Of a stretch of DNA of 32,521 nt, positions 4,280-20,434 are shown in pieces. The first letter of the stretch is position 1, and each line of letters begins with the position of its first letter. Under the pieces are notes generated by a model. It saw only the letters and a list, made by a program, of their open reading frames with translations. It did no database searches and was not told where the DNA came from. The DNA comes from an uncultured Pelagibacteraceae bacterium (GTDB lineage: Bacteria; Pseudomonadota; Alphaproteobacteria; Pelagibacterales; Pelagibacteraceae), in NCBI GenBank assembly GCA_902597895.1, contig CACJZM010000009.1, positions 1 to 32,521 on the forward strand. Direction: 5' to 3'. A program made the translations under genes and the position numbers.

Positions 4280-5374
4280 ATGAAAAAAATCATTTCAATG
4301 TTATTTGCAGTGACTTTATTATTAGGTTTCGTATCTAATGCGCATGCTGCAAAAACTCTAAAATGTCAGACTGTGTTAAATGCTAAGGGTGACGAAGTTG
4401 TCATGCTTAAGGATTTTACAGATACAGTTACTAAACTTACACAAGGTTCATTGAAGTTTGAGATTATGCCTGCTGGAACAGTGGTTGGAGTAAAAGAAAC
4501 TCTAGATGCTGTTGACAAAGGTTTAATTGATTGTGGATTTGCTTGGACACACTATTGGTCAGGTGAACACCCAGCTGCAATGTTATTCGGTTCTCCGGTA
4601 GCAGGTGCTGGTGTTGGTATTGATAATATTGCGTTCTTATCTTGGTTTTTATCAGGTGGTGGAGAGCAATTATATGATCAACTTTGGAAAGAAATGAACA
4701 GAAACATTAAAGGCTTTATGCTTCAACCAGTCGGACCAGAAGCTTTAGGATGGTTTCCAGAGCCAATTAAAAATATGGATGATTTCAGAAAATTAAAATT
4801 CAGAACTCCTCCAGGAATTCCAGGACAAACTTATAAAGATATTGGTATTGCATCAGTAGCTATGGGAGGTGGAGATATTCTTCCAGCTCTTGAAGCAGGT
4901 ACAATTGATGCTGCAGAATGGTGTTGTCCAAAACCAGACATGGTATTTGGTTTCCAAAAAGTTTTAAAACATTACTACTTACAAGGTCTTCACCAAGTAG
5001 TGGTAAATGCTGACTTTTATATAACAGGAACAACTTATGAGAAGTTCTCAGATCATGAGAAAAACTCAATTAAAGTTGCAGCTGATGCATCTTTAATGAA
5101 ATCGTTAGCAAGAAGAATTCTTGTTAATGGTGAAGCATTACATGAACTAACTACTAAACATGGTGTTCAACTTCATGATACTCCTAAAGACTATTTTGTT
5201 GAGTACATGGCAGCAGCTAATGCTACTTTAAATAAAAATGCAAATAAAAATGCATTTTTCAAAAAAGTTTGGGACTCTCAAAAGAAATTTGCTGATACAG
5301 CAGTGCCTTTCTGGGCAGGTGCACAAATGTCTAATGCACAGCTAGGAATGGCTCACGCAGCAACTTTGAAGTAA
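4280..5374 (+). CDS. dctP: TRAP transporter periplasmic substrate-binding protein, DctP/TakP-like
   Basis: A 364-residue protein with a clean Sec signal peptide (residues 1-23, ending NAHA). The mature protein has the DctP fold pattern: the acid-binding arginine in KFRTPPG (R175) and the conserved ALEAGTIDAAEW block (about 203-214). The length and the EW motif resemble the TakP/mannitol-chloroaromatic subgroup, whose known members bind 2-oxo acids with a cation, more than the C4-dicarboxylate DctP. A Cys-Cys pair at 215-216 directly after the EW motif is unusual. It delivers substrate to the DctQ/DctM pair encoded downstream. A strong hairpin terminator after the stop codon should make this gene more highly transcribed than the membrane subunits. 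The ligand cannot be named from sequence; a keto or hydroxy acid is inferred from the subgroup. Confidence 0.9.
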   Translation: MKKIISMLFAVTLLLGFVSNAHAAKTLKCQTVLNAKGDEVVMLKDFTDTVTKLTQGSLKFEIMPAGTVVGVKETLDAVDKGLIDCGFAWTHYWSGEHPAAMLFGSPVAGAGVGIDNIAFLSWFLSGGGEQLYDQLWKEMNRNIKGFMLQPVGPEALGWFPEPIKNMDDFRKLKFRTPPGIPGQTYKDIGIASVAMGGGDILPALEAGTIDAAEWCCPKPDMVFGFQKVLKHYYLQGLHQVVVNADFYITGTTYEKFSDHEKNSIKVAADASLMKSLARRILVNGEALHELTTKHGVQLHDTPKDYFVEYMAAANATLNKNANKNAFFKKVWDSQKKFADTAVPFWAGAQMSNAQLGMAHAATLK

Positions 5375-18579: not shown

Positions 18580-18608
18580 TTTACATTAACATCACCTTGT
18601 TGTATTAG
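18580..18608 (+). promoter_or_regulatory. Original tRNA-Val promoter, now in front of a tRNA fragment
   Basis: TTTACA (18580-18585), 17-base spacer, TATTAG (18603-18608), predicted start at about 18615, 6 bases before the tRNA-Val fragment. The geometry mirrors the tRNA-Leu promoter. It presumably drove the ancestral tRNA-Val before the insertion. Confidence 0.5.
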
Positions 18609-18620
18609 TACCATGTTTTT

Positions 18621-18658
18621 GGGCGGTTAGCTCAGTTGGTAGAGCATCTCGTTTACAC
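18621..18658 (+). pseudogene. 5' half of tRNA-Val, left attachment-site copy
   Basis: These 38 bases are identical to the first 38 bases of the intact tRNA-Val at 20275-20312, from the tRNA 5' end to the last base of the anticodon loop (…CTCGTTTACAC). Identity also includes the three T's before it. Beyond 18658 the sequence is unrelated and there is no anticodon 3' stem, T-arm or CCA. This is best read as one of two attachment-site core copies flanking an insertion. Confidence 0.9.
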
Positions 18659-18718
18659 TGCGCATCTTATTTAAAATAAGTATTAAATTACATCATCAAT
18701 TTATTACATATTAAAAAT

Positions 18719-18740
18719 TGATCACATTCTGATCACACTT
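18719..18740. repeat. Left copy of paired TGATCACA motif
   Basis: Two TGATCACA octamers separated by TTC, about 60 bases inside the left tRNA-Val copy. A 22-base stretch matches the right copy at 20158-20179 at 20 positions, in the same orientation. The position near the element end suggests a recombinase or accessory-protein binding site. Confidence 0.75.
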
Positions 18741-18806
18741 CTTATAAATTTGATAGAATCTCGTTACATCATTGTGTCTAGCTTCAGGATTTGTTAATCT
18801 TGGGTT

Positions 18807-19133
18807 GTGAAAAAACTTTTAGGGATCGTGGTTCTGGGTTTGTTGTGGTGCAATGTTACAGTCGCATTATCACAATCTACCAAGAATAATATTATCAATA
18901 CAATTGAAAGTAATGCCATGGTATCAAAAGCAAAATTTGGTCATGATGAAGTTGGCGGTGACTCTAGTTACACGATTTTTTGGATATGGATGCCAGAAAT
19001 TTCTGGAAAAGACTATAATGCTATTGCAGATTACTTCTGTCCGGTTTTTAAAGTTAACGGGCTAGGTGGAATAACTGTATCAATAAAAAAAAATGGTACA
19101 TACAATACATTAGGAAGAGCTTATTGTAGATAA
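18807..19133 (+). CDS. Small exported protein of unknown function with a repeated SAR11-style signal peptide
   Basis: A 108-residue ORF with a GTG start. The first ~20 residues (MKKLLGIVVLGLLWCNVTVA) form a clear Sec signal peptide, with cleavage expected after VTVA. The Cys at residue 15 is preceded by Trp, a poor lipobox, so a lipoprotein is unlikely. The ~88-residue mature part has two cysteines (YFCPVF and YCR at the very end) that could form a disulfide, and an aromatic FWIWMPE segment. I do not recognise a family. It is the first cargo gene of the segment at tRNA-Val. The first 23 bases after the start's G recur at 19138-19160 as a broken copy. Confidence 0.7.
   Translation: MKKLLGIVVLGLLWCNVTVALSQSTKNNIINTIESNAMVSKAKFGHDEVGGDSSYTIFWIWMPEISGKDYNAIADYFCPVFKVNGLGGITVSIKKNGTYNTLGRAYCR
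18808..18830 (+). repeat. Signal-peptide start repeat, copy 1 (intact)
   Basis: A 23-base stretch beginning TGAAAAAACTTTTAGGG and ending ATCGTG, identical to 19138-19160. Here it encodes residues 1-8 (KKLLGIV) of the exported protein. With three differences the match extends to 33 bases. Confidence 0.85.
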
Positions 19134-19136
19134 ATC

Positions 19137-19166
19137 ATGAAAAAACTTTTAGGGATCGTGATTTAG
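19137..19166 (+). pseudogene. Broken signal-peptide start, copy 2
   Basis: ATG at 19137 opens MKKLLGIVI and hits TAG at 19164-19166. The DNA is a copy of the start of the 18807 gene, but the rest of the hydrophobic core and any mature protein are missing. It sits between the exported-protein stop and the next ORF's ATG at 19181, so it may be the relic of a second gene with the same leader. Confidence 0.65.
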
Positions 19167-19180
19167 GGTTAAGATTTATT

Positions 19181-19642
19181 ATGGGAATATTTGATATTTT
19201 TAAAAAAAAATCTAAACAAAAGAAAACTTCAGTTAAAAACTTATTTTTTAAATCTAATAAAGCTGCTTATGAGTATTCTCAAAAATATTTTTCACCAGCA
19301 ATTTTAGAAAATAAAGCTCTTGTTTTAGGTATTATTTATTTAATAGGACCAGACAAAAAAAGTGCATATGTTAGATGTACATTTGATATTAATAACAAAC
19401 AAACTGAAATTATGGTTGTTGCTTTCTTTGATGATTTTGATCATTCTATAAATGTAGGCGATTTTGTTTATGTAGGAATTAATGATGTTGGACAAGTTTT
19501 TAAATTTCAAGATTTAATGAGTTCAATTGAAAAAGGTGATTTAGAGGCTGTTAAAAATTTAGGAAAATCAACCATAGGAACTATTGTTCAAAAACTTACG
19601 CTGGAATTAGATTTGAAATCTGGACAATTTGTACCTTTTTAA
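19181..19642 (+). CDS. Unrecognised 153-residue protein
   Basis: The N-terminus MGIFDIFKKKSKQKK is amphipathic and strongly basic, typical of a membrane-associating leader seen on many unrelated small proteins. From about residue 24 (LFFKSNKAAYEYSQKYF) a compact soluble domain follows: a beta-rich section (ALVLGIIYLIG, AYVRCTFDI, TEIMVVAFFDDFDH) and a GDFVYVGI strand, then a helical C-terminus. The alternation suggests an OB-like or other small beta-barrel, but I cannot name a family. It has no signal peptide. It is cargo of the tRNA-Val-associated segment, 14 bases after the broken leader copy. Codon use and base composition do not differ visibly from neighbours, so the source is probably another SAR11 cell or phage. 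Confidence 0.65.
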   Translation: MGIFDIFKKKSKQKKTSVKNLFFKSNKAAYEYSQKYFSPAILENKALVLGIIYLIGPDKKSAYVRCTFDINNKQTEIMVVAFFDDFDHSINVGDFVYVGINDVGQVFKFQDLMSSIEKGDLEAVKNLGKSTIGTIVQKLTLELDLKSGQFVPF

Positions 19643-19694
19643 TAAGCAGTATATTTTCAAACATCTGCCACATTTAATGTTTATATTTATAATT

Positions 19695-19710
19695 GTTAAA
19701 GTTCTTTAAC
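19695..19710. promoter_or_regulatory. 16-base inverted repeat, candidate operator
   Basis: GTTAAAG-TT-CTTTAAC, perfect 7-base arms with a 2-base centre, 25 bases before the ATG of the 124-residue ORF. Its size and place fit a dimeric repressor site. In AT-rich DNA a chance palindrome is possible. Confidence 0.4.
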
Positions 19711-19735
19711 GTATAACTTCAGCAACACATAAACT

Positions 19736-20110
19736 ATGAAACAACTAGAATTAGATTTTAATTCAATAAATCTTTCTGATCATTATGAAGCTTATCGAGT
19801 TATCGATGAAGGGAAAAATCAAATTTGTAGTTGGTCTGATTCATTAAGTGATGATGGAAAAAAGATAAGTTATGATGAGTATACTTATAACACCACTCAA
19901 TGTATGGACTTCGAAAATTGGATTCATATTAATAAAAACGGTTTAGGCAAATCTGCATTTAAATGGTTTTATATGTACTTAAAAAACATCAATGGACGTA
20001 CAGACAGACTAGAGAAGCTTAAAAGAGTTTTAGAGGATATGAACATACCTTTTGAAGAAGGGGACTGGCAAACGATTGATAGAGATTGTGAAAGAAATAA
20101 GTTAAATTAA
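19736..20110 (+). CDS. Unrecognised 124-residue acidic protein
   Basis: A soluble protein with no signal peptide or membrane segment, starting MKQLELDFNSINLSDHYEAY. It is rich in Asp, Glu, aromatic residues and Asn. The first half carries many polar and acidic residues (SWSDSLSDDGKKISYDEY). The second half is helical with a charged stretch (RTDRLEKLKRVLEDMNIPFEEGDW), reminiscent of small phage-encoded or regulatory proteins. I do not recognise a family. It is the last cargo gene before the right TGATCACA pair and has its own candidate operator upstream. A role in controlling or maintaining the element is possible but only a guess from position. Confidence 0.65.
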   Translation: MKQLELDFNSINLSDHYEAYRVIDEGKNQICSWSDSLSDDGKKISYDEYTYNTTQCMDFENWIHINKNGLGKSAFKWFYMYLKNINGRTDRLEKLKRVLEDMNIPFEEGDWQTIDRDCERNKLN

Positions 20111-20157
20111 AAGTTTAAACGACTACTTGATTGATACACAATATATACACACCAATG

Positions 20158-20179
20158 TGATCACACTCTGATCACAGTT
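20158..20179. repeat. Right copy of paired TGATCACA motif
   Basis: Two TGATCACA octamers separated by CTC, 95 bases before the intact tRNA-Val. It is in direct orientation with the left copy (18719-18740), matching at 20 of 22 positions. Confidence 0.75.
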
Positions 20180-20226
20180 GAGTGTTAATAATTATTTTTT
20201 TAGCCATTTTTTTAGATTAATAGAAC

Positions 20227-20254
20227 TTGACCTTATCGATCTAAAAGATATAAA
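20227..20254 (+). promoter_or_regulatory. Promoter of the intact tRNA-Val, lying inside the inserted segment
   Basis: TTGACC (20227-20232), 16-base spacer, TATAAA (20249-20254). Predicted start is at about 20261, roughly 14 bases before the tRNA. It is closer to consensus than the original promoter at 18580-18608 and has a different sequence. Confidence 0.6.
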
Positions 20255-20274
20255 ACACATTGTTTTTTTGGTTT

Positions 20275-20350
20275 GGGCGGTTAGCTCAGTTGGTAGAGCA
20301 TCTCGTTTACACCGAGGGGGTCAAAGGTTCGAGTCCTTTACTGCCCACCA
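20275..20350 (+). tRNA. tRNA-Val (anticodon UAC)
   Basis: A complete 76-nt tRNA. The acceptor stem is GGGCGGT with ACTGCCC (one G-U pair), the anticodon stem CTCG/CGAG has loop TTTACAC giving UAC, the T-arm has GGTTCGAGTCC, and CCA is encoded at 20348-20350. Bases 20275-20312 duplicate the fragment at 18621-18658, so the 5' half may be element-derived and the 3' half native. Confidence 0.96.
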
Positions 20351-20357
20351 AAAATGG

Positions 20358-20434
20358 GGGGGTGTAGCTCAGTTGGTTAGAGCGATCGCCTGTCACGCGA
20401 TAGGTCGAGGGTTCGAGTCCCTTCACTCCCGCCA
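20358..20434 (+). tRNA. tRNA-Asp (anticodon GUC)
   Basis: A complete 77-nt tRNA. The acceptor stem is GGGGGTG with CACTCCC, anticodon loop CTGTCAC gives GUC, the T-arm has GGTTCGAGTCC, discriminator is G and CCA is at 20432-20434. It lies 7 bases after tRNA-Val and is probably cotranscribed with it. Confidence 0.96.

Follow-up and report, generated by a model that had tools for sequence, protein, structure and literature searches.

A 1654-bp unit between two 5' halves of tRNA-Val

We analyzed a stretch of 32,521 nucleotides from an uncultured Pelagibacteraceae bacterium (contig CACJZM010000009.1, assembly GCA_902597895.1), referred to here as the window. Between lon and the nuo genes it holds a unit of 1654 bp with three open reading frames (ORFs) and no recombinase gene. 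The unit is bounded by a perfect repeat of 41 nt (18618-18658 and 20272-20312), made up of a 38-nt 5' half of tRNA-Val and three identical bases on its 5' side. The anticodon loop is TTTACAC, and the repeat includes its last base and nothing 3' of it. ARAGORN called an intact tRNA-Val(TAC) at 20275-20350 only and left the left copy uncalled, and Rfam concurred. When up to three mismatches are allowed, the 38-mer still occurs only at these two sites in the genome's own assembly (1,009,563 bases, 83% complete). Chance was also considered as the origin of the pair and was dropped.

An earlier sequence-only reading of this DNA had described the same repeat, with a stub on the left and the intact gene on the right, and both descriptions were confirmed. 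It had read them as the product of site-specific integration into the anticodon loop, in which the core is a tRNA 5' half and the intact tRNA would be a hybrid, and this proposal is supported by the sharp end at the loop and by the empty sites in relatives described below. Its inventory of repeats was right about this pair, the cores, and missed a second pair near both ends of the unit, the arms: TGATCACATTCTGATCACACTT (18719-18740) and TGATCACACTCTGATCACAGTT (20158-20179). The 19-mer pattern of the arms, searched exactly, has two sites in the window and none in the 398 other genomes of our genus sample. Site-specific integration is real at this locus, and the exact stub makes it look recent. 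We consider it probable that the unit is an integrated, non-autonomous integrative element served in trans by a phage-type tyrosine integrase, and that it is one of a family in SAR11 with a common backbone and interchangeable cargo.

Empty sites in related genomes

The 38-mer, with up to two mismatches, matched 184 of 247 family genomes. From that list we hand-picked 17 single-copy loci of the genus, which are not a random draw (loci and genomes are cited by our L and G numbers). At seven of the 17 (L044-L048, L054, and L057), a native-type flank lies directly before tRNA-Val, which stands single and uninterrupted straight after lon; this is the comparison that the sequence-only reading had called for, and it turned up the expected empty sites. 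Nine others have the same promoter block before the tRNA as the right end of the window's unit, and one (L049) has neither flank. None of the ten loci that are not native-type has a same-strand stub within 11 of 38 mismatches upstream, and these loci look like sites where an element arrived and the stub was later lost. The element-type block was found in none of 30 loci from three other genera, although G124, which belongs to yet another genus, has it in its stub element.

Five related genomes make a closer comparison. Four of them (G101, G545, G559, and G577) each have a different element, with four different cargoes (L040, L127, L128, and L130), and the fifth, G234, has the empty site L057; their lon-side flanks are 91-94% and their nuo-side flanks 95-97% identical to one another. 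The window's genome is only 79-80% identical to those five in the same flanks, yet its element has the same backbone. The sequence-only reading had taken the same stub and ORFs in all relatives as the mark of an old duplication; that pattern is not what we found, because relatives have an uninterrupted tRNA-Val after lon and other occupied sites hold different cargo.

An integrase-less family with shared ends and matched arms

Among 399 genus genomes searched with up to three mismatches, 279 matched the 38-mer, and at least 12 of the matches listed had two same-strand copies. We set aside G280, G467, and G575, which are tandem duplications at 248 bp, and G294, whose second copy, with 3 mismatches, belongs to a tRNA-like gene on the opposite strand and was rejected as a stub. 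The remaining genus genomes, together with G017 and G124 from the family search, gave 11 stub elements among the matches listed, of 1654 to 8828 bp, in each of which an intact tRNA-Val follows a 5'-half stub that matches it perfectly. Both cores are exact in 11 of 11, though 2-3 mismatches were allowed. Identity stops 0-2 bases past the loop in ten of them and 17 bases further in L041.

We built an integrase profile from five integrases and ran it on six-frame ORFs of at least 40 aa. The integrase that it detected in L122 is complete, that in L039 is truncated, and the profile also picks up the one in L143, a locus added later. It found no integrase in nine of the 11 stub elements, including that of the window, in which the sequence-only reading had likewise seen no recombinase. 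In these nine, all ORFs are on the + strand (greedy non-overlapping set, at least 50 aa).

Seven of the nine integrase-less elements (the window, L040, L123, L124, L127, L128, and L130) have common, fixed ends around different cargo. At the right end of all seven, the arm register lies 118 bp, the block TTTAGCCATTTTT 76 bp, and GATATAAAACAC 28 bp before the core. The left arm starts at +49 in three elements and at +60/61 in four, a shift of 11-12 bp, or about one helical turn. After it, at +84 to +98, comes the 13-mer AGAATCTCGTTAC, which matched four of 131 genomes (G000, G101, G335, and G361), once in the window's own genome. A reversed-letter control matched six of 131, so such a 13-mer can arise by chance, and its weight comes from the fact that every true match, in all four genomes, lies inside a backbone element. 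The 13-mer at 18755-18767 also resembles the core sequence AGCATCTCGTTTAC, with one change and one base missing, and it might be an accessory core-type site for an integrase. In L128, the 13-mer and leader occur at +84 and again at +2223, before an inner gene, which suggests a composite of two cassettes.

The letters of the arms vary among elements (TGATCACA, GCACA, GTCACA, GGTCAC, CGTCAC) and match between the two ends of one element. Over eight of the 11 elements, left and right arms agree at 153 of 184 aligned positions, a score reached by 36 of the 40,320 possible pairings; at the six variable positions, 38 of 48 agree (26 of 40,320 pairings as good). When each element was shuffled 200 times, six of the eight had 0 or 1 shuffles as good. 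A second arm family, with TCTACGCA repeats, contains two elements at the same tRNA-Val site, L122 (G334), with an integrase, and L126 (G519), without one. By their position and conservation, the paired repeats are probably integrase arm sites; they match between ends and stand in elements with no recombinase, and we treat them as putative sites.

Proposed exchange of the tRNA promoter

The stub is preceded by the promoter-like pair TTTACA-N17-TATTAG, and the intact gene by TTGACC-N16-TATAAA, 20 bp from the tRNA. The latter, element-type block (up to two mismatches) occurs in 92 of the 399 genus genomes, with 93 matches. For 57 of these a tRNA-Val position was listed, and all 57 are immediately upstream of it (starts 52-60 bp apart). 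By its match to the consensus, the block would serve as the promoter of the rebuilt tRNA. One idea is that the native promoter, now at the stub, could transcribe the cargo, which would fit the one-way orientation of the cargo genes. Together, the two promoter-like pairs suggest mobile DNA that alters the control of a tRNA gene.

Elements with integrases at the same core

The 38-mer occurs in 31 viral stretches, fifteen of them as half sites. Counting Synechococcus phage Yong-M3-232, there are 16 half-site viral loci, and 14 of them have an integrase within 3 kb. Among the loci with a match, 12 are not from SAR11, and there the integrase gene reads toward the core; in the two SAR11-like loci it reads away. 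Two low-GC viral contigs, L077 (6170 bp) and L086 (5933 bp), have a complete integrase right after the core; we took both as circular because coding sequence repeats at their two ends (terminal overlap). Relatives of the L086 integrase are encoded at five loci in named Pelagibacteraceae genomes, and these named relatives, together with the sequence-only reading, are our basis for placing the window in SAR11. One of the five loci, L143, is integrated at tRNA-Val, with a stub at 728, the integrase at 876-1823, and the intact tRNA at 4883. In L086, L077/L141, and L143, a complete integrase adjoins the same core, and the arm repeats are of the same motif as those of the backbone elements. The stubs of L143, L122, and L126 are preceded by an element-type promoter, which suggests repeated use of the site.

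The same integrase family was found at L144-L147 and in viral L142, where the 5' part of tRNA-Gly(GCC) precedes the integrase; in L144, L146, and L147, an intact tRNA-Gly follows after 5.4-6.8 kb. Integrase identity is 82-87% among tRNA-Val users, 73-86% among tRNA-Gly users, and 64-70% between the groups, and all eight integrase loci have repeated arm-like motifs just before the integrase gene. Integration on the 5' side looks like a property of this integrase family, because users of both tRNAs follow tRNA 5' parts. In the 8.8-kb element of L122, the integrase is a different one, one protein matches Terminase_2, and another ORF looks, by eye, like a polymerase. L086 encodes an AAA_25 ATPase, and both L077 and L086 have an ORF that resembles a terminase small subunit by eye only.

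Explanations for the family

The mechanism we propose begins with a circular form whose core would be the 5' half (38 nt) of tRNA-Val, flanked on both sides by arm sites. The tyrosine integrase of another element would join this circle to the chromosome within the anticodon loop of an intact tRNA-Val gene. On the lon side, the original promoter and 5' half would remain as the stub. The native 3' half would receive both a 5' half and a sigma70-like promoter from the element, which is why the tRNA could survive. The sequence-only reading had left three options for the unit: a remnant, a satellite, or a unit mobilized in trans. The conserved, co-varying arm sites and shared backbone favor the third; as a satellite, it would be one with no integrase of its own. 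We infer excision, a helper integrase, and packaging or transfer from these comparisons.

Several results weigh against this proposal. None of the seven integrase-bearing loci tested has the backbone 13-mer, and our sample may therefore lack the exact helper. The sequence-only reading had suggested a search of pelagiphage genomes; in the viral contigs searched, the window's exact arm pair was absent. The genome's own assembly encodes one tyrosine recombinase (a 325-aa ORF on contig C2), which resembles the putative helper family only distantly (best E 0.002, to L147). In the genome assemblies and viral contigs covered, none of the integrase-less members turned up as a circle, as an attP junction, or in excised form. 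Support for phage-borne transfer consists of the Terminase_2 match in L122 and the ORFs of L077 and L086 that were called terminase-like by eye, and Pfam found nothing in the fragment of L077 tested. The arm permutation test omitted L039 (shortened right arm) and L122 and L126 (other arm family), with shared ancestry uncorrected, and the matches of L124 (14 of 200 shuffles as good) and L127 (49 of 200) are not significant singly. Finally, the sharpness of the core varies among elements: identity continues past the loop for 17 bases in L041 and for 11 in L143.

The integrase-less elements might instead be dead remnants, autonomous elements that each lost an integrase independently and are now immobile, with only their attachment sites left. 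L039 is indeed decayed, with about the first 122 residues of an integrase remaining; L041 has a left end like those of integrase-bearing elements, yet no integrase; and at nine of the 17 single-copy loci, the element-type promoter is still present although no same-strand stub is recognizable between lon and the tRNA. Independent losses fit poorly with a backbone that is common to seven integrase-less elements and missing from the sampled integrase-bearing ones, or with arms that co-vary at fixed spacing. The stubs of dead elements should escape selection on the tRNA, yet all 11 are exact, and five related genomes hold four different cargoes and one empty site. We regard this explanation as unlikely.

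Another explanation is that one ancestral integration was followed by homologous recombination between the conserved ends, which exchanged the cargo and made repeated site-specific integration unnecessary. Although their cargo differs, L040, L127, L128, and L130 have almost the same right end, as such exchange would produce. The same group contains the empty, native-type site L057, and both arms change together; these four elements have only two arm types, however, so the test is coarse. We judge a history of this kind improbable as well.

An old tandem duplication of tRNA-Val with the intervening genes was dropped for the window as very improbable: the tRNA-Val/tRNA-Asp pair is duplicated at 248 bp in G280, G467, and G575 and the repeat of L041 runs 17 bases past the loop, but the 248-bp copies are complete genes, the repeat in ten of 11 stub elements ends within two bases of the loop around cargo of 1.6-8.8 kb that differs, and empty sites and matched arm repeats contradict it. 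Duplication does hold for those three genomes, whose pairs (G280 C1:48314, G467 C1:152119, and G575 C1:58783) have differing upstream flanks.

Features and cargo of the elements

Features of the window's element and its borders are collected in Table 1.

Table 1. Positions of features at the tRNA-Val locus of the window
Feature	Position	Strand	Basis or remark
Native promoter-like pair TTTACA-N17-TATTAG, now before the stub	18580-18608	+	Consensus match only; similar flank before 7 of 17 single-copy tRNA-Val loci in the genus
5'-half tRNA-Val stub, left attachment core (41 nt counted from 18618)	18621-18658	+	Repeat comparison
Left arm-type repeat; 23-base register begins +60 after core	18719-18740	+	Repeat comparison
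Backbone motif AGAATCTCGTTAC, +97 after core	18755-18767	+	Sole copy in own genome, even with 1 mismatch
Leader TTCAGGATTTGTTAATCTTGGGTT ahead of first gene	18783-18806	+	Partly conserved in other elements
ORF1, 108 aa, GTG start, apparent signal peptide (by eye)	18807-19133	+	No Pfam match
33-nt repeat (91%) of ORF1 start, ahead of ORF2	19138-19170	+	Repeat comparison
ORF2, 153 aa	19181-19642	+	Weak matches to phrog_9944 (E 4.9e-4) and phrog_31308 (E 5.4e-4), both of unknown function
ORF3, 124 aa, cargo gene	19736-20110	+	Also in tRNA-Thr elements that lack an integrase; fold search empty at E 0.001
Right arm-type repeat; register begins -118 before core	20158-20179	+	Repeat comparison
Right-end block TTTAGCCATTTTT, 76 bp before core	20199-20211	+	7 of 7 backbone elements
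Element promoter-like pair TTGACC-N16-TATAAA ahead of rebuilt tRNA	20227-20254	+	Consensus match only; block in 92 of 399 genus genomes
Right attachment core, putative element-supplied 5' half of tRNA-Val	20275-20312	+	ARAGORN, repeat comparison
Intact, apparently hybrid tRNA-Val(TAC), native 3' half from 20313	20275-20350	+	ARAGORN, Rfam
tRNA-Asp(GTC), native neighbor	20358-20434	+	ARAGORN, Rfam

None of the three ORFs of the window's element reached the Pfam cut-off. Their PHROG matches below E 0.001 were confined to the two families of ORF2, and neither Pfam nor PHROG gave a terminase, primase, or AlpA match; the best PADLOC match was of ORF3 to GajB (E 0.0077). The fold of ORF3 was predicted from 19 sequences with a mean predicted local distance difference test (pLDDT) score of 84.5, and a Foldseek search with the model returned nothing at E <= 0.001 in PDB or BFVD. 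A joined ORF2 and ORF3 query matched 34 of the 399 genus genomes, its own included, G246 through ORF2 and the others through ORF3. In G501 and G341, a block of about 480 bp with ORF3 is 95% identical in DNA to that of the window, versus 79% for nuo DNA. There it lies in elements of 1641 bp (L138, G501) and 1970 bp (L139, G341) at tRNA-Thr(TGT), bounded by repeats of the 3' half of that tRNA, with TGTGTTAAKAGTGTGT-type repeats near both ends; the integrase profile found nothing in either at E <= 1.

The cargo of other elements includes type I restriction-modification (L126), a SNF2 helicase with a NOV_C protein (L041), trypsin-like proteases (L040, and L128 by similarity), GIY-YIG, T5orf172, and ABM domains (L123), and PrsW and DUF805 (L124), in family searches that left out L127 and L130. 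L041 (G124) carries three genes, whose products are a 452-aa protein of unknown function, the SNF2 helicase, and the NOV_C protein. This cargo gave partial matches in PADLOC, DpdE and PD-T4-1 among them, and may be an undescribed defense system. The starts of apparent signal-peptide genes are repeated before several island genes (18808-18840 and 19138-19170 in the window; 4016-6919 in L039), often accompanied by a leader like TTCAGGATTTGGTAATCTTGGATT, as if leader and signal peptide formed a reusable cassette.

Significance and comparison with known systems

SAR11 genomes are highly streamlined. To our knowledge, few mobile elements have been described in them. If about 300 bp of ends and borrowed enzymes are all that such a family needs, this would explain how cargo (restriction-modification systems, proteases, the SNF2/NOV_C pair, and small proteins) is exchanged at a fixed site in small genomes, and matched arm sites make the question of which integrase moves which island directly testable. 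We give about even credence to a broader reading, in which the elements form a dedicated integrase-free class of tRNA-gene cassettes. Arm letters would then define compatibility groups, determining which satellite or phage integrase moves which cassette, and each move would swap the promoter and 5' half of the tRNA, which could be why the element-type block is now in about a quarter of the sampled genus genomes (92 of 399).

Williams is said to have distinguished, in 2002, three sublocations of crossover within tRNA genes. Integration with a 5' half is known but rare. In the open literature searched, an integrase-free family like this one did not turn up: among the papers listed, no title or abstract described an integrase-less family of tRNA elements in SAR11, with most subscription literature outside the search.

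Islander reports a 5' fragment for 159 of 3919 islands and requires an integrase and at least 2 kb (PMC4383910). The window's element fails both filters because it has no integrase and is 1.65 kb long, and island finders based on an integrase or a 2-kb minimum will miss such elements. It otherwise resembles Islander's tRNA islands, which lie between an intact tRNA gene and a displaced fragment and in which anticodon-centered cores are common (PMC4383910): the 5' fragment is on the same strand upstream of the intact tRNA, and the target is uninterrupted in relatives, with the island's own integrase lacking.

Marine phages with tRNA-fragment attachment sites are known, including one at tRNA-Leu for a SAR11 phage (2013 study, PMC3861242). 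Yong-M3-232 (OM868076.1) is closer, with a tRNA-Val(TAC) 5'-half phage attachment site, a 40-nt identical core, and an annotated integrase adjacent to it; unlike the window's element, it is a 45-kb phage record. A distant parallel is offered by mycobacteriophages that survive integration by bringing along complete tRNA genes under a promoter of their own (PMC10865867).

Phage satellites (phage-inducible chromosomal islands [PICI], phage-inducible chromosomal minimalist islands [PICMI], virion-encapsidated integrative mobile elements [VEIME], and tycheposons) resemble the likely helpers L086, L077, and L143, which are satellite-like, 4-6 kb in length, and encode an integrase. Known satellites encode the integrases needed for excision (PMC10803314), whereas the window's element encodes none. 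Tycheposons combine a tyrosine recombinase with a tRNA border (PMC10872708), of which it has the border only.

Cis-mobilizable elements (CIMEs) keep attachment sites without integration and transfer genes (PMC5704250), and the window's element likewise retains its sites and has genes for neither recombination nor transfer. The literature describes CIMEs as integrative and conjugative elements (ICEs) or integrative and mobilizable elements that have decayed, some of which moved with a tandem ICE, whereas here an integrase-free backbone is shared. No adjacent second element was seen in the window, and the related integrase-bearing elements look satellite-like, not conjugative. Miniature inverted-repeat transposable elements (MITEs) and clusters of attC sites lacking integron-integrases (CALINs) borrow recombination enzymes (2024 review, PMC11389934). 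Their logic of keeping the sites and borrowing the enzyme is the one we propose for our family, which differs in enzyme class and site: it would use a phage-type integrase with putative arm sites, and its target is a tRNA gene; on the broader reading above, these cassettes would be the phage-integrase counterpart of MITEs and CALINs.

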